DNA from: Clostridia bacterium
GTDB lineage: Bacteria > Bacillota > Clostridia > Oscillospirales > CAG-272
DNA length: 50,864 nt
NCBI GenBank assembly: GCA_017453205.1
Contig: JAFTKO010000027.1
Coordinates: 1-50,864 of the forward strand
Reading direction: 5' to 3'
The notes beneath the pieces are model-generated. The model saw nothing but the letters and a program-made list of their open reading frames with translations, did no database searches and had not been told where the DNA came from. A program made the translations under genes and the position numbers. This document shows positions 6,343-19,559 of this stretch, piece by piece (within the stretch, counting starts at the first letter, position 1; each line of letters starts with the position of its first letter).

Positions 6343-6373
6343 AAAACGTCAAATAAATTTGGAGGCGATTGAC

Positions 6374-8503
6374 ATGACTTTTTATGCACCAAACAATTAC
6401 AACAGACCGATCAGACTTTCCAAGTCCACGCGGCAGTTTGCCCATGATTCATTGGATCACAAATACGGTCTTGATACCCGCAAGACGCTCGGCGTGTGCT
6501 TGGACGGGCTTGCGAATTTTGAGCAAATGACGCCGTTGGAGCAGTACGACACCGCCATTGAAAGGATCGCACGTGAGGCACCGATCCGTATTTGCAAGGA
6601 CGAGAAGATCAGCGGTGCGGCAACATTGGGGCTTGCTATTGGTCATTACGTCCCCGCAACCTATCGCGAAAAGCCGATCTACAGCTCGGTCAGCCATTTG
6701 ACCGTCGATTTTGAAACGGTGGTAAGGCATGGGATTCTCCATATCCGCAAAAACGCGGAGCGGTCGCTTGAGAGATATCGCGGTACCGAGCGGGAAGCCT
6801 TTTTGCAGAGCTGTCTGCATTGCTTGGACGCTTTTGACGTTTGGCATCGGCGCTATCTGGACGCACTTCGGGAGATGCCCGCATACGAAAGCAATTACAA
6901 AAATCTGCAACGCGTTCCGCAAAAGCCCGCAGCCAATTTCTACGAAGCCGTGCAAAGCATTTGGTTTACCTTTGCTTTTCTTCGTCTGTGCGGAAATTGG
7001 CCCGGCATCGGACGCATCGATTACTTGTTGGGCGACTATCTGAAAAAGGATCTTGCCAATGGAACGCTCACGCTTGACGAAGCACGTGAGATCTTGGCAC
7101 ATTTTTTCATCAAGGGTTGTGAGTGGGTCTCTGGCGGAAATTACGGCAGCGGAGATGCGCAGCACTACCAAAACATTTTGCTTTGCGGTGTGGACGAAAA
7201 CGGGGAAGAGGTGACCAATGAGGTCACGTTCCTTGTGCTTGACATTTTGGAGGAGCTTGGGATCAGCGATTTTCCCACGTCGGTCAGACTGAACCGAAAC
7301 ACCGATGAAAAGCTTTTACGCCGCGTTGCTGAGGTCATGCGCTACGGCGGGGGTATCCTTGCGGTCTACAATGAGGATCTCGTCATTGAAGCGCTCGTAC
7401 GCGATGGTTATGACCTGCGTGAGGCACGCAAATTTGCAAACGATGGGTGCTGGGAGGTTCAGATACCCGGAAAGACGTTTTTTACATATTTTCCCTTTGA
7501 TTCGCTGCAAACATTTCAAAAAAAGACCTTGCAAGATTATCAAGGTGACGTAGCCTTTGACAACTTCAAAGCGCTTTACCGCCAATATATCAAGGATCTT
7601 GAAGTCGAGCTCTTGCAGATCTTTCAAAACATACAAAAAAAGTTTATCACTGCGGGTGCCCCCACCAAGGATTGGAAATGGCTGCCACAAACGCCTTGCA
7701 CGGTAGTTTCCTTGTTTGAGCAGGGATGTATCGAAAAGGGGCTTTCTTATTTCGAGGGTGGTCCCGTATATAACGTAACTTCTCCTCACATCGGGGGGCT
7801 TGCCGACGTTGCAAACAGCCTTTACGCCATCCAAAAGCTGGTGTATGAAGAAAAAAAGTTGACCCTAAACGAGCTTTTGACGATCCTCAAAAATAATTGG
7901 GAAGACAATGAACCCTTGCGGCAGTATGCGTTGCATCACTACGCCTATTATGGAAACGACAACGACGAGGTCGATCTGCTCGTTACGCGGATCCTAAACG
8001 ATTTTTCAAACACCTGCAACAGCTTTAACGGAAAATGCGGTTACCGTTTTCCCGCGGGTGTCAGTACGTTTGGGCGTCAGCTGGAATGGGCACCGTATCG
8101 CGGTGCAACGCCCTACGGCAAGCGCGCCGAGGAGGTCCTTGCCGCCAATTGCTCTCCGACGCCGGGGACCGATACAAGCGGCGCTACCGCTATCATCTGC
8201 TCCTACTGCAAGGCAGAGCTTGTGCGGCTGTCCTGCGGCGCGGCATTGGATCTCAAGCTTCTCCCTACAAGCGTGTTGGGAGAGGACGGCTTGCAGGCGC
8301 TGATGGGGTTGATGCGTGGCTTCGTGGAGCTTGGCGGCTTCTTTATGCAGCCTGATGTCGCAGACCCCGACATTCTGCGTCAAGCGCAGAAAGATCCGGA
8401 AAATTATCAGACGCTTTCTATTCGCGTTTCCGGTTGGAACGCACGCTTCGTGACGTTGAATAAAGTCTGGCAGGATATGGTGATCGAGCAAAATGAACAC
8501 TAA
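6374..8503 (+). CDS. Glycyl-radical enzyme, PFL-like superfamily, substrate unknown
   Basis: Oxygen-sensitive glycyl-radical enzyme of 709 residues; well-known family members are usually about 760-850. The radical glycine is Gly687 in RVSGWNARF near the C-terminus (families usually show RVxGYxAxF; here Trp replaces Tyr). The thiyl cysteine is Cys359 in NDGCWE, followed at +2 by Glu361. A G-C-x-E motif marks eliminases and decarboxylases (glycerol/diol dehydratase, choline lyase, hydroxyproline dehydratase, isethionate lyase), while pyruvate formate-lyase has two adjacent cysteines. It is therefore unlikely to be a true pyruvate formate-lyase. The start follows GGAGG by eight bases. The activase gene overlaps its end by 11 bases. 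No microcompartment genes are near. Confidence 0.9.
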   Translation: MTFYAPNNYNRPIRLSKSTRQFAHDSLDHKYGLDTRKTLGVCLDGLANFEQMTPLEQYDTAIERIAREAPIRICKDEKISGAATLGLAIGHYVPATYREKPIYSSVSHLTVDFETVVRHGILHIRKNAERSLERYRGTEREAFLQSCLHCLDAFDVWHRRYLDALREMPAYESNYKNLQRVPQKPAANFYEAVQSIWFTFAFLRLCGNWPGIGRIDYLLGDYLKKDLANGTLTLDEAREILAHFFIKGCEWVSGGNYGSGDAQHYQNILLCGVDENGEEVTNEVTFLVLDILEELGISDFPTSVRLNRNTDEKLLRRVAEVMRYGGGILAVYNEDLVIEALVRDGYDLREARKFANDGCWEVQIPGKTFFTYFPFDSLQTFQKKTLQDYQGDVAFDNFKALYRQYIKDLEVELLQIFQNIQKKFITAGAPTKDWKWLPQTPCTVVSLFEQGCIEKGLSYFEGGPVYNVTSPHIGGLADVANSLYAIQKLVYEEKKLTLNELLTILKNNWEDNEPLRQYALHHYAYYGNDNDEVDLLVTRILNDFSNTCNSFNGKCGYRFPAGVSTFGRQLEWAPYRGATPYGKRAEEVLAANCSPTPGTDTSGATAIICSYCKAELVRLSCGAALDLKLLPTSVLGEDGLQALMGLMRGFVELGGFFMQPDVADPDILRQAQKDPENYQTLSIRVSGWNARFVTLNKVWQDMVIEQNEH

Positions 8504-9398
8504 CGATCAGATCAAACTAAACGTTACCGAGATCCAACGCTTTTGTATGCATGACGGACCGGGGATCCGAACCACCGTCTTTCTCAAGGGCTGTCCTCTG
8601 CGTTGCGCGTGGTGCCACAATCCCGAAACACAAAAAGCGGCGGGGGAATTACTTTTTAATCCCAAAAGGTGTATTGGTTGCCGCGCGTGTGAGGTAGCTT
8701 GCGAGAACGGGGTACACGGCGGTTCCGAGCATCATACCGTAACGCGTGCGCTGTGCCGTGTCTGCGGTGCTTGTGTCGCCGCCTGCCCTACGGGGGCGTT
8801 GGAGCTTTGTGGCAGGGAAATGAGTGTCGAGCAGATCTTTGCCGAGGTCGAAAAGGATCGTGCCTTTTACGGTGTGACGGGGGGCTTGACGCTTTCAGGT
8901 GGAGAACCATTTTCACAGGGGAGGGCGGCGATATCGCTTTTGAGGCTTTGTAAGGAACGTGAACTTGCCACCGCAGTTGAGACCTGTGGATATTTTGACG
9001 GTGCGTTGCTTGCCGATGCGGTCGACTTTACCGATCTCTTTCTTTGGGACGTTAAGGATACCGACGGCGAGCGGCACAAACGCTATACGGGTGTGTCAAA
9101 TGAACGGATACTGAACAATCTTGCTCTTGCGGACACCTTGGGCGCAAGGATCCGACTGCGATGTATCTTGGTGCGTGGCGTCAACACCGAGGGGGAGCAT
9201 TATCGGCGCATTGCCAAGCTTGCCGGATCTCTTTCGAGGCTTGACGGCGTGGAACTGCTCCCGTATCATGCGTACGGTGGAAGCAAAGCAACTCTTCTAG
9301 GGTTTGCCGACAACGGTCGGGTCGAATGGATCCCAACCGCCGAGCAGATCGAGGATGCCAAAAGGTGTATTGCCGATCACGGCGTAAAGATTTTATAA
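8493..9398 (+). CDS. Glycyl-radical enzyme activating enzyme (radical SAM)
   Basis: Radical-SAM activase, 301 residues, that would install the radical on Gly687 of the upstream enzyme. The SAM cluster motif CPLRCAWC supplies Cys34, Cys38 and Cys41. An inserted ferredoxin domain carries two more 4Fe-4S motifs, CIGCRACEVAC (Cys60, 63, 66, 70) and CRVCGACVAACP (Cys88, 91, 94, 98). That insert is absent from the PFL activase and normal for activases of dehydratase or decarboxylase-type enzymes, which agrees with the GCWE motif of the partner. GGLTLSGGEPFSQ is the SAM-binding GGE region. It overlaps the enzyme gene by 11 bases, and a terminator follows. Confidence 0.95.
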   Translation: MNTNDQIKLNVTEIQRFCMHDGPGIRTTVFLKGCPLRCAWCHNPETQKAAGELLFNPKRCIGCRACEVACENGVHGGSEHHTVTRALCRVCGACVAACPTGALELCGREMSVEQIFAEVEKDRAFYGVTGGLTLSGGEPFSQGRAAISLLRLCKERELATAVETCGYFDGALLADAVDFTDLFLWDVKDTDGERHKRYTGVSNERILNNLALADTLGARIRLRCILVRGVNTEGEHYRRIAKLAGSLSRLDGVELLPYHAYGGSKATLLGFADNGRVEWIPTAEQIEDAKRCIADHGVKIL

Positions 9399-9455: not shown

Positions 9456-10286
9456 TTATAATACCTTGCTCAAAAACTCCTTGGTACGGGGATTTTTGGG
9501 GTTGTTAAAGAGCTCTTGCGGGGGAGCGTCCTCGGAGATGACACCGCCGTCCATAAAGAGGACACGGTCGGCGATCTCGCGGGCAAAGCCCATTTCATGT
9601 GTGACGATGACCATGGTCATACCCTCTGCGGCAAGCTCCTTGATCAGGTCCAGCACCTCGCCCACCATTTCGGGGTCAAGCGCGGAGGTCGGTTCGTCAA
9701 ACAGCATGACCTTGGGGTTCATGGCAAGGGCGCGGACGATGGCAATTCTCTGCTTCTGACCGCCCGAGAGCGTGGAGGGATAAACATTTGCCTTTTCCTC
9801 CAGTCCGATGCGGCGGAGCAGGTTCATGGCGGTCTCCTCGGCTTCTTTTTTGATCTGTTTTTTGACTGCGGCTTTGGCAAAGATGCCGCCTGCTTTCTTG
9901 GTTTTTAGGTACACGGGGGCAAGCATGATGTTTTGCAATACGGTTTTGTTGTTGAACAGGTTGAACTGCTGAAAGACCATGCCGATATTTTCGCGGTGCT
10001 TGTTGATGTCCACATGGATGTCGGCTATGTCTTCACCGTCAAAATAGATCGAACCGCTTGTGGGATCCTCCATACAGTTGAGGCAACGCAAAAAAGTGCT
10101 TTTGCCACTGCCCGAGGGACCGATGATCGCAATTTTTTCATTTTTATGGATCACATAATCAATGTTTTTCAACACATTCAGCGTTTTTTTGCCGATATGA
10201 AAGGATTTACACAGCCCCTTGATCACGATGATCTCATCGTCTTTGATCTCGGGAACCGTTTTGATTTGGTTTTCTTTGTTACTCAT
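9456..10286 (-). CDS. Polar amino-acid ABC importer, ATP-binding protein
   Basis: ATPase of a polar amino-acid importer (PAAT/GlnQ type), 276 residues, about 30 more than GlnQ. The extra length comes from a 20-residue polar N-terminus and a Lys/Ala-rich insert of about 15 residues ([18 protein letters not shown]) between the Q-loop and the signature. Walker A is [16 protein letters not shown]-loop MVFQQFNLF, signature [15 protein letters not shown], Walker [15 protein letters not shown] and H-loop [12 protein letters not shown](N)[13 protein letters not shown] is characteristic of the amino-acid subfamily. It is the last gene of a minus-strand operon whose order is binding protein, permease, ATPase. 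Confidence 0.95.
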
Positions 10287-10301: not shown

Positions 10302-11009
10302 TTAGGCGCGTTCGCCGCGCTTCATTCTTTTTTCCAAAAGCTTGAAGAGCAGTGTGATCATCATGATCAAAACAATGTAGATCAATGCCATCATCAAATA
10401 GGGTGCCAAATATTCATAGTTCACATTTCCCATTTCGGTAAATACCTTGTAAAGGTCGACCGCCGCAACGAAGCTGACGACTGAGGTGTCCTTGATCAAT
10501 GCGATAAATTCATTGCCAAGCGTAGGGAGAATGTTTTTGACCGCTTGAGGGACCACAATCTTCAGCATTGTCGGATAAAATCCAAGTCCCAAGGCACGTC
10601 CCGCCTCCATCTGACCGCTGTCTACCGACTGAATGCCCGCACGCATGATCTCGGAAACATAGGCGCCGCTGTTGAGACCGAAAATCAAGATACAGGTGTT
10701 TAAAGAACCGATGGAAATGCCCATCAAGGGGAAGAGGACATAATAGGCAAGCAACAATTGGACAACAATCGGTGTTCCGCGAAAGAAGCTGACGTAAATG
10801 TTACAAACGGCATTGAGAACACGGGGGAGTGTTTTGTATTTTGGCATGACCTTGACCGCGGCGATCAGCGTACCGATGACGATACCGATGACAAGACCTA
10901 AAATCGCAATGATAAGGGTATTTTTCAAACCCTCAGAAAAGACTCTTTTGTATCCGCCGTTGGTGTAAAAAAGTCTCCAAAAGGCGGACCACTCTTCTGC
11001 AAAATTCAT
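10302..11009 (-). CDS. Polar amino-acid ABC importer, permease
   Basis: Membrane subunit, 235 residues from the chosen ATG; AAAGGAT lies ten bases upstream, and an earlier in-frame ATG at 11030 would place that site inside the coding region. About five membrane helices are visible (TLIIAILGLVIGIVIGTLIA, VVQLLLAYYVLFPLMG, the CILIFGLNSGAYVSEI region, SFVAAVDLYKV and YLMMALIYIVLIMMITLLF). The EAA coupling loop is QMEAGRALGLGFYPTMLKIV, and FRGTPIVVQL is diagnostic of His/Glu/Gln/Arg-type permeases. It pairs with the ATPase gene 15 bp downstream. A strong hairpin separates it from the binding-protein gene. Confidence 0.94.
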   Translation of the reverse strand: MNFAEEWSAFWRLFYTNGGYKRVFSEGLKNTLIIAILGLVIGIVIGTLIAAVKVMPKYKTLPRVLNAVCNIYVSFFRGTPIVVQLLLAYYVLFPLMGISIGSLNTCILIFGLNSGAYVSEIMRAGIQSVDSGQMEAGRALGLGFYPTMLKIVVPQAVKNILPTLGNEFIALIKDTSVVSFVAAVDLYKVFTEMGNVNYEYLAPYLMMALIYIVLIMMITLLFKLLEKRMKRGERA

Positions 11010-11053
11010 TTGGTAAACTATCCTTTCCAAAAATAATCGGTTCTTTTTACAAA

Positions 11054-11102: not shown

Positions 11103-11966
11103 TTATTTGTTTACGCTTTTTGCAATCGCATCCGCGGGAGCGTTGTCGAGGATCACATAGTTGATCTCGCCGTTGCGCATTGCGGTGACAGCAAGTGCCG
11201 CGTAGTCATAGCCCATCTTGGTTACGGGCAGTCCCTTAAAGCCGTAGCCGTCAGGGTTGTCGAGGTCGCCTACGATGTAGGTCTCGCCTGTGGTGCCGGT
11301 CTGGCAACCGATCTTTACATCCTTGCTCATGGCGTCAAGAAGGGCAACCACATCGTCAGCGGTTTTGCAGCTGTCAAAAGTCGTATCATCCTCTTTTACG
11401 ATCAGAACTTGAGAAGCGTTGTAATAGGAGTTGCTGAAAGTGACCATTTCTTGGCGGGCGGGGGTAACGGTAAGACCTGCCATGCCGATGTCGGCGGTTC
11501 CGGTTTGGACCGAGGTTACAACGGACGCAAACTGCATGTCGAGGATGACCAGCTCCTTGCCGAGGTACTCTGCAAGACCTTTGGCGATCTCAAGGTCGAT
11601 GCCGTAGTATTTTCCGTTTTCGTCAACCATTTCAAAGGGCGCGAAACCTGTGCTGGTGGCAACAACAAGCTGATCCTTGTTGGGGTCTGCCGTGGTGGCG
11701 GCATCGAATTTTACGGGGGTGCCTTCACCGAAGTATCTGTCACAGATCGCATCAAACGTACCGTCGTTTTGGATCTTGGTAAGATACTCGTTGACGCTGT
11801 TGAGAAGGGTCGTGTCGTCCTTTGCCACAGCAAACGCATATTCCTCCACAGAGAGCGGGATATCGATTACCTTGACGCCGACTTTTCCTTGATTACAGGA
11901 AGCAAAGGAAAGCACGCCGCAAACGAGCAACGCGGACACGAGAAGAATGCTAATCAATTTTTTCAT
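11103..11966 (-). CDS. Amino-acid binding lipoprotein, apparently circularly permuted
   Basis: Extracellular solute-binding lipoprotein, 287 residues, with a signal peptide and lipid cysteine Cys24 (LSFASC). The order of its parts is unusual. Residues 29-82 (VIDIPLSVEEYAFAV, then VNEYLTKIQNDGTFDAICD and RYFG) are what normally ends an SBP_bac_3 protein. Only after a linker does the canonical beginning appear (DQLVVATSTGFAPFEM, 98-113), followed by the usual order: YYGIDLEIAKGLAEYLGKE, TADIGMAGLTVTPAR, IGCQTGTTGE. The chain stops at NYVILDNAPADAIAKSVNK, exactly where the displaced segment would normally follow. Lobe 1 therefore becomes contiguous and lobe 2 terminal. It is first in the importer operon. 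A degenerate fusion is the alternative. Confidence 0.9.
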   Translation of the reverse strand: MKKLISILLVSALLVCGVLSFASCNQGKVGVKVIDIPLSVEEYAFAVAKDDTTLLNSVNEYLTKIQNDGTFDAICDRYFGEGTPVKFDAATTADPNKDQLVVATSTGFAPFEMVDENGKYYGIDLEIAKGLAEYLGKELVILDMQFASVVTSVQTGTADIGMAGLTVTPARQEMVTFSNSYYNASQVLIVKEDDTTFDSCKTADDVVALLDAMSKDVKIGCQTGTTGETYIVGDLDNPDGYGFKGLPVTKMGYDYAALAVTAMRNGEINYVILDNAPADAIAKSVNK

Positions 11967-12011
11967 TTTTCTTTTCCTCCAATTGTATAATTTGAATTGA
12001 TTACATTAGAT

Positions 12012-12400: not shown

Positions 12401-14416
12401 TCATACATTGATCCTTCTCACCTGTCCTTGCAACGGTTGGTTTGCCGCAAAGGCTTTGATGACGGTGTCAATAACAGCGGGAGACTCGGTGGTGAACAGG
12501 AAGTGCTGAGCCGAGATGCCGGCGCGGCGGAGCTGATCTTGGCGGTCAGACATATTGGTGGGGAGGCTGTTACAGATGACATTGCGGTGCTCCCATTCGC
12601 GCAGGATGGGGAAGGAGATGCCGCGGCGGTCGGAGAAAGTGACGCCGTCGGTGGCGCATTTTTTACAGTCGGCAAGCTCACGGATCGCACATTTTTCCAA
12701 CGTCATGAGAGGCAGTCTGCCATAAACGATTACCGAGGTGTTGCCGCCAATGTCGCGGATCTGCGGTAGTGTCAGCTCGGGAGAAAGGATCAGCGAGGAG
12801 ACACCGAGGGCTTCCCATGCGCACACGCTTTCGGCGTTGGTCACGTTCAGTCGAAAGTCTCCCACGGAAATCAGTCCCGCGCGGCGGGCAAGCTCCAAAT
12901 GTCCGAGATTGCCGACCAAAGCGTATTTGGCACCGCCGAGGGCAGCGGTTTGCAGCATTTGTTTCACTTTTTGGGTATCTCCGTCAAAGATGACGGGCGG
13001 CAGAACCACGCCGTTTGCGTCGGAGGTGAATTTGTGTAAGGGGAGATAAATCACGTCAAAATATTCTTTTGCAAGCGGCGTGATTTGCGCGGGCTTGTAA
13101 AAGCGTGCCGTGCGCTGAGGTCGGCGCTTTCCTTGCGGTATACACGGGGAAAAAGGCTTCATTTCAAGTGAGGCCGCAACAGACTGCTCGTCCAAGGCTT
13201 GCAGAGCGCGGCGGCGCAGATCGTTCAAACGCGAGACGGGGAGCATCAAATTTTCCCCCAACTCCAAGGAGAACGAACCGACATGGTAAAGGGTTCCGCC
13301 GAATTTGGAGAGGTTGCGTTCCACGACCTCATGCGTCAGAGGCGCATGGATGGCGGGCATAGGGATGTCTCCTGTCACGGTCACGCTTTTGATGTCATTC
13401 GAAAGCGTCAGAAGTGCGGGCGCATCGGCAGTCAGCTTTGCAGAAACCTCCAACGGGATGCGGCGCGTCAACCCCGTAAATGGCTTCAACGCGCGGGTAT
13501 TGGACTTGTCGGTGTCCGAGCGGATCCCGAGCATACAGCGGTCAATGTGCTCCGTATAGTAACCGTCGGTAAACCCACCGCGGGAGAAGGCATCGGCAAG
13601 CGCTTGCATTTCCGCGGGCGTGGCCGCACGGTTTTCATCCAACAGCTTGCGCCAAATGCGCGCCGTGTCGCGGACATATTCGGGGGCTTTCATGCGTCCC
13701 TCGATTTTTAGCGAGGAAACGCCGATGTCGATGAGTTCCGGAACGTGCGCGGCAAGCGAAAGATCTTTGAGTGACAGCGGGTAAGTATTCTTGCTCTTGC
13801 AGTCGGCACAGGAATAGGGCAAACGGCAGGGCTGGGCGCATTCCCCGCGGTTACCGCTTCTGCCACCCACGATCGAGGAAAACAGGCATTGCCCCGAGTG
13901 ACTGACGCAGAGCGCGCCGTGAATAAACATTTCGATCTCGATCGGTGCGCTCGTTACCAGTGTACGGAGATCTTTTTCGGAGATCTCACGCGCGACGACC
14001 ATGCGGGTAAAACCCAACTCCTTGAGCCGGGTTGCCATCGCGAGATTGTGTCCCGACATTTGCGTGCTGGCGTGTAGCTCGGCTCCGGGGAGCGCGCGGC
14101 GGATCGCCATGGCACCGCCGAGATCGGCGACGATCAAGGCGTCCACACCCGCGCGGAGCGCGTCTTTTGCGGTGTCGACGAACGCCGAGAGCTCGCGGTC
14201 GGTGGCAAGTGTGTTGAGCGTGAGATAGACCTTGACGCCGAATGTATGTGCGCGCAAAACGGCGGAGCGCAAAGCGTCTCCGCCGAAATTTTTTGCGTTC
14301 ATGCGTGCGTTAAAAGCCGCACCGCCAAGATAGACGGCATCCGCTCCGCCTTCGATTGCCGCGTCAAGCGCCTCGGGGGAACCTGCGGGACAGAGCAGTT
14401 CGGGTAATCGTTTCAT
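12401..14416 (-). CDS. U32 family protein, RlhA/YdcP-like
   Basis: A 671-residue member of the U32 family, named peptidases but now known mainly as iron-sulfur RNA hydroxylases (RlhA on 23S rRNA, TrhP on tRNA). The N-terminal TIM barrel starts LLCPAGSPEALDAAIEGGAD and carries YLGGAAFNAR. Four conserved cysteines sit in FIHGALCVSHSGQCLFSS, GECAQPC and neighbouring residues, the expected cluster ligands. A downstream TKDLSLAAHV-like segment (here SLKDLSLAAHVPEL, then SLKIEGRMKAPEYV) is also canonical. The length, with a C-terminal DUF3656-like half, fits the RlhA branch. The ZapA gene lies four bases upstream, so they are cotranscribed. Confidence 0.9.
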   Translation of the reverse strand: MKRLPELLCPAGSPEALDAAIEGGADAVYLGGAAFNARMNAKNFGGDALRSAVLRAHTFGVKVYLTLNTLATDRELSAFVDTAKDALRAGVDALIVADLGGAMAIRRALPGAELHASTQMSGHNLAMATRLKELGFTRMVVAREISEKDLRTLVTSAPIEIEMFIHGALCVSHSGQCLFSSIVGGRSGNRGECAQPCRLPYSCADCKSKNTYPLSLKDLSLAAHVPELIDIGVSSLKIEGRMKAPEYVRDTARIWRKLLDENRAATPAEMQALADAFSRGGFTDGYYTEHIDRCMLGIRSDTDKSNTRALKPFTGLTRRIPLEVSAKLTADAPALLTLSNDIKSVTVTGDIPMPAIHAPLTHEVVERNLSKFGGTLYHVGSFSLELGENLMLPVSRLNDLRRRALQALDEQSVAASLEMKPFSPCIPQGKRRPQRTARFYKPAQITPLAKEYFDVIYLPLHKFTSDANGVVLPPVIFDGDTQKVKQMLQTAALGGAKYALVGNLGHLELARRAGLISVGDFRLNVTNAESVCAWEALGVSSLILSPELTLPQIRDIGGNTSVIVYGRLPLMTLEKCAIRELADCKKCATDGVTFSDRRGISFPILREWEHRNVICNSLPTNMSDRQDQLRRAGISAQHFLFTTESPAVIDTVIKAFAANQPLQGQVRRINV

Positions 14417-15543: not shown

Positions 15544-16671
15544 ATGAACAAGGATGTATTGATCAGGCTGAACGGAATCTCTAAGGCGTTTGACGGAGAA
15601 ACCGTTCTGGACAACATGAGTCTGGAAATCCACGACAAGGAATTTATCACTCTGCTCGGACCCTCCGGTTGCGGCAAAACGACCACGTTGCGCATTATCG
15701 GCGGCTTTGAAACACCCGACGCGGGCGATGTCTTTTTTGACGGGAAACGGATCAACGATCTGCCGCCGTACAAACGGCAGGTCAACACGGTGTTTCAGCG
15801 TTACGCGCTGTTCCCGCATCTGAATGTGTTTGACAATATCGCATTTGGACTTCGCTTACACAAATGTCCCGATGCCGAGATCAAGACCAAGGTCAAGGAG
15901 ATGCTCTCTCTGGTCAATCTTAAGGGCTTTGAGCGCCGCCGCGTCAGTACGCTTTCGGGCGGACAGCAGCAGCGTGTTGCCATCGCGCGCGCATTGGTCA
16001 ATCAACCCAAGGTGTTGCTCCTTGACGAGCCGCTTTCGGCACTCGATCTCAAATTGCGCAAGGATATGCAAAACGAGCTCAAAAATATCCAGCACCAAAC
16101 CGGCATTACCTTTATTTATGTCACCCATGACCAAGAGGAGGCGCTTTCGATGTCCGACACCGTGGTCGTCATGGAGAACGGACATGTCCAGCAGATCGGC
16201 TCTCCCACCGATATCTACAACGAGCCCGTCAATGCCTTTGTTGCCGACTTTATCGGGGAATCCAATATTGTGGACGGCGTGATGCTGGAGGACCGCCGTG
16301 CGAAGTTTGCGGGCCATGTTTTTGATTGCGTGGACGGCGGCTTTGACCGTAACGAGCCTGTGGACGTTGTGATCCGTCCCGAGGATGTGGATGTGGTTGC
16401 ACCCGACAAGGGTATGCTGTGCGGTCTTGTGACCGGCGTGACCTTCCGCGGGGTGCATTACGAGATTATTGTGGACGTGGCGGGCTTTAAATGGATGATA
16501 CAGACCACCGATTATGTGGCAGAGGGGGAGACCATCGGTCTTTCCATCGATCCCGATGCGATCCATATCATGAGGAAATCCGAATTTTCCGGAATGTTTG
16601 GAGACTACTCCTCGTTTAGCGATGAGCTGGACAAGCTTTCCGATGTTACGGAGGAAGTCGAAGAGGAATGA
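15544..16671 (+). CDS. potA: Spermidine/putrescine ABC importer ATPase PotA
   Basis: ATPase of the polyamine importer, 375 residues, normal for PotA. The nucleotide domain (1-240) has Walker [18 protein letters not shown]-loop [12 protein letters not shown], signature [15 protein letters not shown], Walker [13 protein letters not shown] and H-loop [11 protein letters not shown]. The C-terminal TOBE domain (about 280-350) includes [11 protein letters not shown]. The ATG lies 12 bases after AAAGGAG. A 15-codon out-of-frame ATG-stop ORF begins at 15537 and overlaps this start; it is probably chance. potB starts within its stop codon (ATGA). Confidence 0.96.
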
Positions 16672-17489
16672 AAAAACGTTCTGTATTCGAGCGGATCGCC
16701 GCAGCACCGCACCTATTGTGGTCTGCCATCTTTATCATCGCTCCGCTCCTTTTTGTGGTTTATTTTGCGTTTACCGACCGAGAGGGGAATTTTACATTTG
16801 AGAACATTTTGTCCCTTTCGTCCTATTCGCACACCTTTTTGATGTCGATTGGCTTTTCGCTGATTGCCACCGCAGTCTGTTTTCTGATCGGCTATCCTTT
16901 GGCGTACTGCATGGCGCGGATGTCCGAAAAAACGCGGAATATTCTGATGATCATGCTCATGCTCCCGATGTGGATCAGCCTTTTGATCCGTACCTATTCG
17001 CTCATGGCGTTGCTTGACAACGGCGGTATCATCAGCACCTTTCTGACAAGTCTCGGCTTTGAAAAGCTGACCTTTATCGGCACCGACGCGGCGGTTATTT
17101 TGGGTATGATCTACGATTTTCTACCCTATATGGTGCTTCCCATCTACACCACCATGACCAAGCTCGACCGCAAATATCTCGAGGCGGCGGCGGACCTTGG
17201 CTGTAACAACCGTCAAACGCTCTTTCGCGTGATCCTTCCGCTGAGCATGCCGGGAGTGATCTCGGGAGTGACGATGGTGTTTGTTCCCTCTATCAGCACT
17301 TTTTACATTTCGCAAAAGCTGGGCGGCGGCTCGTTCGACCTCCTCGGCGATACCATCGAGCGCCAGTTCAAAAACGCCATTACCTATCACACAGGTGCGG
17401 CGATCTCGTTGGTAATGATGATCTTGATCCTCATCTCCCTTGCAGTGATGAACAAATTCTCCGACAGTGAGGAGGATATCATCGTATGA
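16668..17489 (+). CDS. potB: Spermidine/putrescine ABC importer permease PotB
   Basis: First membrane subunit of the polyamine importer, 273 residues with six predicted helices, starting with [20 protein letters not shown]. The EAA cytoplasmic loop, which docks to PotA, is [20 protein letters not shown] followed by [11 protein letters not shown], and the ILPLSMPG sequence is diagnostic. It overlaps potA and potC by four bases each, so expression is tightly coupled. Confidence 0.96.
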
Positions 17490-18316
17490 AATTTTTATCC
17501 AAATTTTACATCGGTCTTATCTTTTTGATCCTTTACGCACCGATCTTGGTCGTGATCATCTTTTCCTTTAACTCGTCGGGCAGCTTGAGCAGCTTTTCCG
17601 GTTTTTCGCTTTACTGGTACCGCGAGCTGTTCCGTGACGGCGAAGCCTTGAAGGCACTGAAAAACTCACTCTTTTTGGCGGTGACATCGTCGGTATTGGC
17701 AACGCTCATCGGTACTTTGGCGGCGTTTTCCATCTCGCGCTCCAAAAACAAGTATTACAAACGTCTTGCCGAGGGGGTCTCCAATATTCCCATGATGAAC
17801 CCCGATATTGTCACAGGTGTGTCGATGATGCTTTTGTTTGTCGGTGTCGGCACCATCATAGGTGTCAGTGACACGTTGGGAATGTGGACGATGCTGATGG
17901 CACATACCACCTTTAACCTGCCGTATGCGATTTTGCAGATTCTGCCGCGGTTCCGCCAAATGGACAAGAGCTTGACCGAGGCGGCGCTCGATCTCGGCTG
18001 TACGCCCGCGCAGACCTTTTTCCGCGTGGAGCTGCCGTATATCATGCCGGGAGTGATCTCGGGATTGATGATGGGCTTTACGCTCTCGCTCGATGACTTT
18101 GTCATCAGCCATTTTGTCAGCTCTCCCGACTTCAAAACACTTCCGCTCTATATCTACAATCAGACCGCACATGAGGTCAAATTCAGTATGTACGCGCTTT
18201 GTACACTCATGATCGTTGTCATCCTCATTCTGCTGATTGCCGTCAATGTGGCAGGCTCCGCGGGAGAAAGCAGACAGCGGAAAAAGGAGAAAAAAACAAC
18301 GGGGGTGAGCAAGTAA
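17486..18316 (+). CDS. potC: Spermidine/putrescine ABC importer permease PotC
   Basis: Second membrane subunit, 276 residues with six helices. The EAA loop is LTEAALDLGCTPAQTFFRVE followed by LPYIMPGVISG, and GFTLSLDDFVISHFVSS is a strong PotC marker. It starts inside the potB stop (ATGA) and ends one base before potD. The C-terminal tail is very basic (RQRKKEKKTTG). This potC is not fused to the binding protein, unlike in some Firmicutes. Confidence 0.96.
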   Translation: MKFLSKFYIGLIFLILYAPILVVIIFSFNSSGSLSSFSGFSLYWYRELFRDGEALKALKNSLFLAVTSSVLATLIGTLAAFSISRSKNKYYKRLAEGVSNIPMMNPDIVTGVSMMLLFVGVGTIIGVSDTLGMWTMLMAHTTFNLPYAILQILPRFRQMDKSLTEAALDLGCTPAQTFFRVELPYIMPGVISGLMMGFTLSLDDFVISHFVSSPDFKTLPLYIYNQTAHEVKFSMYALCTLMIVVILILLIAVNVAGSAGESRQRKKEKKTTGVSK

Positions 18317-18317
18317 G

Positions 18318-19559
18318 ATGAAACGTGTGGTTTGTCTGTACACTCTTTTGCTGGTGCTTTTGACCGCGCTTTGCATCACGCTTTCCTCCTGCGGGAGTGA
18401 GAATGCGCGAACTCTGTATGTGTACAACTGGGGCGAGTATATTTCCGACGGCTCCGAGGGGACATTGGACGTCAACGCGGCGTTTGAGGAGTATTATTAC
18501 GAGAAATACGGCAAGGAAGTGGTTGTCAATTACTCCACATTCTCAAGCAATGAGGATATGTATGCAAAAATCAACAGCGGCGCTTCCACCTACGATGTGA
18601 TCGTGCCGTCGGATTATATGATCCAACGCATGGTGGAGGAGGATCTTTTGGCTCCGCTCGATCTTTCCAAGATCCCCAACTACGCCAATATCGACGATGA
18701 TTTTAAAGGTGAGAACGTCTACTACGAGGATGACACCGACAATATCTATTCGGTTCCGTACTTTTACGGTATGGTGGGCGTGATCTACAACAGCTCGATT
18801 GTTGCCGAGGACGATGAACAGATCGGCAGTTGGGGGCTGATGTGGGATGCCGATTACACCGGTGACATCCTGCAATTCAACAACAACCGCGACGCTTTCG
18901 GAACGGCGCTTTACTATCTTGGCTACGATGTCAATGAGGCGACCGAGGAGCAATGGCGTGAGGCTTTGGAGCTACTCAAGTCGCAAAAGGATTTGGTGCA
19001 GGGCTACGTCATGGACGAGATCTTCAACAAAATGAAAAGCGGTTCGGCGGCGGTGGCGTCTTACTATGCGGGCGATTTTCTTGCCATGCACGAGGATAAT
19101 GAAGATCTTTCTTTCTTCTATCCAAAGGAGGGGACCAACATTTATGTGGATGCTATGTGCATTCCCAAAAACTCCAAAAACTACGATCTCGCGCTCGAAT
19201 ACATCAACTTTATGTGCAGTGAAGAGGTCGGTGTTGCCAACGCACTTTATACCTATTACGCTTCTCCCTTGACTGCGGTCGTGGAGAACGCCGAGTATCA
19301 AGAGACAATGGCAGAGGTTCATGAGGACGCGATGGAGATCCTTTACGGTGACATGGCGGCATCTGTGCCCACCCAAGCGTACCTCAATCTGACGCCCGAG
19401 CGCTTGACCGTGCTCAACTCCCTTTGGGAGGAGCTGAAAGTCGAAAGCAGTATCGGCATAGGTATTTACGTTTGTTGCGCGGTGATCCTTGGGGCTTTGA
19501 TCCTGTTGGTGGTATACAACGTGGTCAAAAAACGCCGTTGGGCAAAGCTTTATGATTAA
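18318..19559 (+). CDS. potD: Spermidine/putrescine-binding lipoprotein PotD with C-terminal helix
   Basis: Extracellular polyamine-binding protein, 413 residues (typical PotD about 350). The signal peptide ends in a lipobox with Cys25 (ITLSSC). The mature part begins with LYVYNWGEYISDG, the PotD/PotF hallmark, and continues with STFSSNEDMYAKINSGAS, YDVIVPSDYMIQRM, NYANIDDDF and VPYFYGMVGVIYN. Its aspartates, glutamates and aromatic residues are of the sort that bind polyamines. The odd part is the end: residues about 380-401 form a clear membrane helix (IGIYVCCAVILGALILLVVY) followed by KKRRW, so the protein would be anchored at both ends. Confidence 0.94.
   Translation: MKRVVCLYTLLLVLLTALCITLSSCGSENARTLYVYNWGEYISDGSEGTLDVNAAFEEYYYEKYGKEVVVNYSTFSSNEDMYAKINSGASTYDVIVPSDYMIQRMVEEDLLAPLDLSKIPNYANIDDDFKGENVYYEDDTDNIYSVPYFYGMVGVIYNSSIVAEDDEQIGSWGLMWDADYTGDILQFNNNRDAFGTALYYLGYDVNEATEEQWREALELLKSQKDLVQGYVMDEIFNKMKSGSAAVASYYAGDFLAMHEDNEDLSFFYPKEGTNIYVDAMCIPKNSKNYDLALEYINFMCSEEVGVANALYTYYASPLTAVVENAEYQETMAEVHEDAMEILYGDMAASVPTQAYLNLTPERLTVLNSLWEELKVESSIGIGIYVCCAVILGALILLVVYNVVKKRRWAKLYD

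Follow-up and report, generated by a model that had tools for sequence, protein, structure and literature searches.

Natural circular permutation has often been inferred between distant proteins. One structure-based report describes it among glycine-betaine binding proteins, molybdate binding proteins, and CysB, at less than 24% identity (CPSARST, PMC2395249). Further cases, named in another report, include DNA methyltransferases and saposin/swaposin, with duplication intermediates documented for the methyltransferases and with duplication, fusion, and trimming described as a standard model of permutation (PMC3320104). In the SBP_bac_3 family of amino-acid-binding proteins, the canonical order comprises the N-terminal part of lobe 1, lobe 2, and the C-terminal part of lobe 1. 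In TmArgBP, lobe I consists of residues 23-110 and 210-231 and lobe II of residues 116-203, with the connectors at 111-115 and 204-209 (limits from PMC4022495). For this family, the only permutants that we encountered were engineered ones, in the title of a reference, and no natural permutation was found among the papers listed in the literature searches, which covered titles and the beginnings of abstracts, with most subscription journals and bioRxiv falling outside.

The protein described here, P0002, departs from this order, with the lobe 1 C-terminal part preceding the N-terminal part. It is encoded on the minus strand, from 11966 to 11103, of a 50,864-nucleotide stretch of DNA from a Clostridia bacterium, referred to below as the window. 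The gene (11103..11966; recognized as an open reading frame and by Pfam and profile matches) starts with ATG and specifies 287 amino acids. A GGAGG motif (11976-11980) lies nine bases ahead of the start codon, and a sigma-70-type promoter-like site, TTGACA-17-TATAAT, is found farther upstream on the same strand (12040-12012). This site is a consensus match only, albeit the only one with all 12 of 12 positions among the seven promoter-like sites in the region, where 4.0 would be expected. The product begins with a signal peptide and a lipobox ending in FASC (Cys24; 11895..11966, from reading the sequence), and this cysteine is unchanged across the 32 rows of alignment A1. Right after the lipid anchor come residues 29-37 (11856..11882), placed by homology and alignment with 6svf and 4zv1 as the last strand of lobe 2, and residues 38-43 (11838..11855), the homology-inferred second interlobe connector. 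These are followed by residues 44-82 (11721..11837), the canonical C-terminal part of lobe 1, shifted to the front according to alignment and profile, and by residues 83-96 (11679..11720), a profile-defined linker from the canonical C terminus to the canonical N terminus. The canonical N-terminal part of lobe 1 (residues 97-180; 11427..11678; Pfam and alignment), the homology-inferred first connector (residues 181-185; 11412..11426), and the remainder of lobe 2 (residues 186-287; 11106..11411; alignment and published lobe limits), which here is C-terminal, complete the chain, all on the minus strand. The first-pass annotation of this DNA had recognized in residues 29-82 the canonical closing segment, placed ahead of the canonical start, and both the alignments, in which that start lies around residue 97, and a profile built exclusively from canonical sequences confirm that reading. 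The canonical start that it named, LVVATSTGFAPFE, at residue 100, and the protein end, VILDNAPADAIAKSVNK, were likewise found in the translation.

The Pfam SBP_bac_3 model (PF00497) matches P0002 in two stretches, with 115.9 bits (cut-off, 26.4), and is matched at E 0.001 by all 32 rows of alignment A1. Because Pfam displays merely an SBP_bac_3 match in two stretches, the rotation is readily overlooked in annotation. When the source genome, which is about 73% complete, was searched with PF00497 at E 0.001, the two matches obtained were both within the P0002 gene. The canonical-only profile locates the C-terminal part at q30-79 (q, residue of P0002) with 61.4 bits, compared with a best score of 5.8 bits among 2,000 shuffled versions of P0002. 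The best single-domain score is 182.5 bits for the native chain and 230.7 bits after rotation, and it stays level for rotated starts at about q80-95, in the linker. Both the match to the moved segment and the rotation gain are far beyond chance. The same operation raises the score of one relative from each of the four permuted forms described below (A, B, C, and D) and does not raise that of a canonical relative, L175. A doubled profile shows that the domain span of P0002 is a clean single copy. In alignments with solved relatives, q97-194 falls at the beginning of the relative's chain and q38-81 at its end (residues 9-106 and 186-229, respectively, of the TmArgBP chain 6svf). P0002 is thus predicted to adopt the SBP_bac_3 fold in rotated order. 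Circular permutation, which had been proposed as the explanation, is by sequence the best one, considering the rotation gain, the many homologs with the same order, the retention of the ligand residues, and the existence of a canonical relative 77% identical to another protein of the P0002 type.

Homologs with the same segment order proved to be abundant. The P0002 order was observed as one colinear match in 18 of 59 further relatives, in at least 25 of the 294 additional genomes examined from the order (in one of these, G232, in two pieces around an insert), and in at least 35 of the 390 examined from the class. E-value and length limits shortened the order and class lists, and the searches overlap in some genomes. 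Outside the class, no match with this order was among those listed at E 1e-16 for a phylum sample of 299 genomes. To compare the segment orders, we assembled the top matches together with chosen canonical and partial ones, a set that is not a random sample, and assigned the cut phase of each open reading frame with a doubled (circular) profile. After removal of four tandem arrays, one chance match (L024_3), and six duplicates, the set included 77 distinct rows of the P0002 type (cut A, P0002 included), 10 of cut B, 36 of cut C, 4 of cut D, and 68 canonical rows. With a frame of 219 aa beginning at q120 and no lipobox, L195, here included among the canonical rows, was taken to be truncated. As placed by homology, cut A, with the chain ending at about q283-287 and starting at about q29, falls ahead of the last strand of lobe 2; cut B (q209-214) lies past the first lobe 2 helix; cut C (end at q190-196) past the first lobe 2 strand; and cut D (end at q232-234, start at q243-247) past the next lobe 2 helix. 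None of the 127 distinct permuted rows is cut in lobe 1, a post hoc count obtained with a single query and partly hand-picked rows. Canonical (G001), cut-A, and cut-B forms occur within one genus, in the same kind of operon, and the cut-A protein L098 and canonical L175 are 77% identical over the rotated columns. Five cut-A proteins (L012, L013, L016, L017, and L018) carry about 16 to 17 additional lobe 1 residues at about q155.

When P0002 was mapped by sequence onto TmArgBP, with the lobe limits published in PMC4022495, the connectors of the latter aligned with q181-185 and q38-43. The first-pass annotation had anticipated altered hinge crossings. This expectation does not hold, because cut A sits inside lobe 2, ahead of its last strand (29-37) and the connector (38-43), so that both crossings remain. 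Its other expectation, that the lipid anchor would meet the lobes differently, is borne out by the mapping: in P0002, the anchor enters lobe 2. With all four new cuts located in lobe 2, the anchor would shift from lobe 1 to lobe 2 each time. The old ends are joined by 14 to 29 residues across all four permuted forms, and, in the 77 cut-A rows, the linker between q79 and q97 has a median length of 16 residues.

The P0002 gene heads a binding protein-permease-ATPase operon, in which it is followed by genes for an ABC permease (BPD_transp_1; 10302..11030) and an ABC ATPase (ABC_tran; 9456..10286), both on the minus strand and identified by domain matches, so that the rest of the importer looks as standard as had been noted earlier. 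With duplicates included, a permease gene resembling that of the window was detected downstream, within short flanks, in 77 of 82 cut-A, 10 of 10 cut-B, 32 of 37 cut-C, 4 of 4 cut-D, and 56 of 68 canonical rows; because the flanks examined are short, the missing permeases may be real absences or may lie out of view. The permease is fused to the binding protein in one cut-A row and four cut-C rows. Arg at q171 is present in all 201 rows and Asp at q274 in 200 (duplicates included; the loss is in 1 of 82 cut-A rows), and P0002 has both of these residues, which we take to be those that hold the backbone groups of the bound amino acid. By pattern search, 116 of 127 permuted rows have a lipobox ahead of the domain (11 are without one), as do 64 of 68 canonical rows. 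The dN/dS ratios are low, 0.064 to 0.126 between P0002 and four relatives, and 0.02 to 0.19 over the 12 pairs that yielded a value, a 13th being saturated (whole open frames were compared, so that a few codons ahead of the start are counted), which indicates purifying selection. The kept ligand residues, the permease partners, and the low dN/dS are the pattern expected of working importer parts. Elsewhere in the window, a Peptidase U32/DUF3656 protein (12401-14416) adjoins the importer; a PFL-like glycyl radical enzyme is paired with a radical SAM protein, its likely activase (6359-9398); and genes on the plus strand (15544-19559) specify a second ABC importer, whose binding protein is of the SBP_bac_8 type and whose ATPase contains a TOBE domain.

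The segment order was then mapped on two trees. A quick tree of 168 rows, built from rotated sequences with the linker columns removed and five duplicates left out, needs 11 or more transitions between the five states, and so does a careful tree of 103 hand-picked rows, from which long-branched ones, such as L032 and L145 (cut A), L118 (cut C), and L040, L156, and L030 (canonical), were left out; these counts do not tell gains from reversals. In the careful tree, the main A+B group (support 100/100), B within it (98/97), and D (100/99) are recovered, further cut-A rows are interspersed among canonical ones, cut-C rows occupy separate places, and canonical L175 sits within a cut-A group. A single clade was rejected for all permuted forms (p 0.0003), for A+B (p 0.017), and for all cut-C rows (p 0.0004), and was not rejected for C without L185 (p 0.23). 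Thus, the permuted state, as well as A+B, each needs more than one gain or reversal. In the tree's reading, B would be derived from A, yet a clade of the 23 main cut-A rows without B was not rejected (p 0.27). Similarly, a clade of 12 outlying cut-A rows (p 0.076), one of nine of them (p 0.24), and one of seven cut-A rows without L175 (p 0.41) were not rejected; hence, the number of events is uncertain, and separate origins, from one another, of the cut-A groups outside the main clade are unsupported. Chimerism between the halves was considered and dismissed, given that, in a tree of the N-terminal part as well as in one of lobe 2 plus the C-terminal part (at least 13 and 12 changes, respectively), the main A+B group and the group of seven cut-A rows with L175 each remain together on one side of a branch.

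We estimate with a probability of about 0.9, from sequence comparison, that P0002 functions as the polar-amino-acid binding lipoprotein of an ordinary SBP-permease-ATPase importer and that its SBP_bac_3 fold is a naturally occurring circular permutant. The linker of about 16 residues would bridge the former chain ends, and the new ends would lie in lobe 2, between its final helix and its final strand. As both lobes and the two hinge crossings would be made up of the same parts as before, P0002 should still shut like a flytrap on its amino acid, with the lipid anchor now attached to lobe 2 instead of lobe 1. Several such permutations, at four loops, all in lobe 2, would have taken place in SBP_bac_3, most likely through tandem binding domains that were duplicated, fused, and trimmed. 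Tandem arrays fused to a permease do exist, in the form of canonical doubles (L134 and L135) and of long arrays in the cut-C register (L137, G038:C5, and L136, G677:C48), which run from lobe 2 to the N-terminal part of lobe 1 ahead of the permease. At L060 (G300), cut-A and cut-B genes lie side by side on the minus strand (585-1415 and 1498-2358), with a permease gene 7 bases past the cut-B gene. Single permuted domains with an ABC permease fused at their C terminus are encoded as well, by L130, L131, L132, and L133 (cut C) and by L062 (cut A).

That the order is a sequence artefact, produced by a misread gene start or by the assembly joining of two binding-protein genes, against which the first-pass annotation had cautioned, has a negligible probability. 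Most of the relatives are draft genomes, but recurrence already refutes an assembly error, the same order being shared by 77 distinct rows, some of them in one-contig genomes (G517, G545, G664, and G278), and the promoter-like site, GGAGG, and lipobox stand at the expected places ahead of a frame with low dN/dS. A domain-swapped assembly, in which residues 29-82 complete lobe 1 of a neighboring molecule, giving dimers or chains, is improbable in our estimate, even though TmArgBP, the closest natural single-domain chain among the matches listed, dimerizes through a swap of its C-terminal helix, according to PMC4022495; the linker, in all four forms, looks fit to span the old ends within one chain. 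More weight, although still on the unlikely side, is given to a history in which a single ancient permutation, or an ancestor that was already permuted, was followed by returns to the canonical order rather than by repeated gains. The blindness of the change counts to gain versus loss, the position of L175 within a cut-A group, and the several single-clade tests that were not rejected would all accommodate such a history, but a single clade is rejected for all permuted forms, for A+B, and, unless L185 is left out, for cut C, and four distinct cuts require several events regardless.

As for why the chain was re-cut repeatedly, there is close to an even chance that rotation is neutral and frequent because tandem domains abound and the loops of lobe 2 tolerate cuts, the new place of the anchor being inconsequential. 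The co-occurrence of canonical, cut-A, and cut-B forms in one genus and one kind of operon fits neutrality, against which the complete lack of lobe 1 cuts can be set, with the caveat that this pattern was noticed post hoc. Tentatively, and with somewhat less confidence, we suggest that re-cutting at four lobe 2 loops, and never in lobe 1, may have been selected because the shifted anchor would alter how the lobes of this phylum's binding lipoproteins are presented to the permease. The four cut sites, the close pairs (77%) with different segment orders, and the intermediate-like tandem arrays make the evolution of permutation directly testable. The SBP_bac_3 permutants are natural experiments on which anchored lobe matters in ABC importers. 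They also supply naturally rotated versions of a fold that serves in amino-acid biosensors.

P0002 shares all parts, the ligand residues, the lipoprotein anchoring, and the operon partners with the SBP_bac_3 (type II) binders GlnH, HisJ, and TmArgBP; compared with these, its order is rotated, with new ends in lobe 2, and the canonical ends are joined by a linker (14 to 29 residues in the permuted forms). In GlnPQ-type tandem domains (6h30), the C-terminal part of one domain followed by the N-terminal part of the next reproduces the P0002 order across the junction, but these proteins contain two or more domains and are fused to the permease, whereas P0002 is a single copy of 287 aa with a separate permease gene. 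Among the solved sequences listed at E 1e-20 (49 and 38 distinct, best stretch of each), only the two-domain 6h30 spans the rotated junction, and no single-domain solved chain in permuted order was among the matches listed at that threshold. A tblastn search of plasmids returned 82 records, one of which, a binding protein/permease fusion by its annotation, covers at least 80% of the query; of the 12 rows listed, the remaining 11 cover only the canonical N-terminal part and lobe 2. The OpuAC-type glycine-betaine profile is absent among the three Pfam families listed for P0002 up to E 1. The folds of DNA methyltransferases and saposin/swaposin differ from that of SBP_bac_3, and we know of no lipid anchor relocated by permutation in those proteins. 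The glycine-betaine, molybdate, and CysB case, as presented in PMC2395249, is closer, being a natural permutation within the same broad fold, but, compared with those distant proteins, the SBP_bac_3 relatives are up to 77% identical, have four cut sites, and belong to one Pfam family. Natural permutation as such is thus already known; what is new here is that, in the rows examined, it affects multiple sites, more than once, within one amino-acid-binding family, and always carries the anchor to lobe 2.
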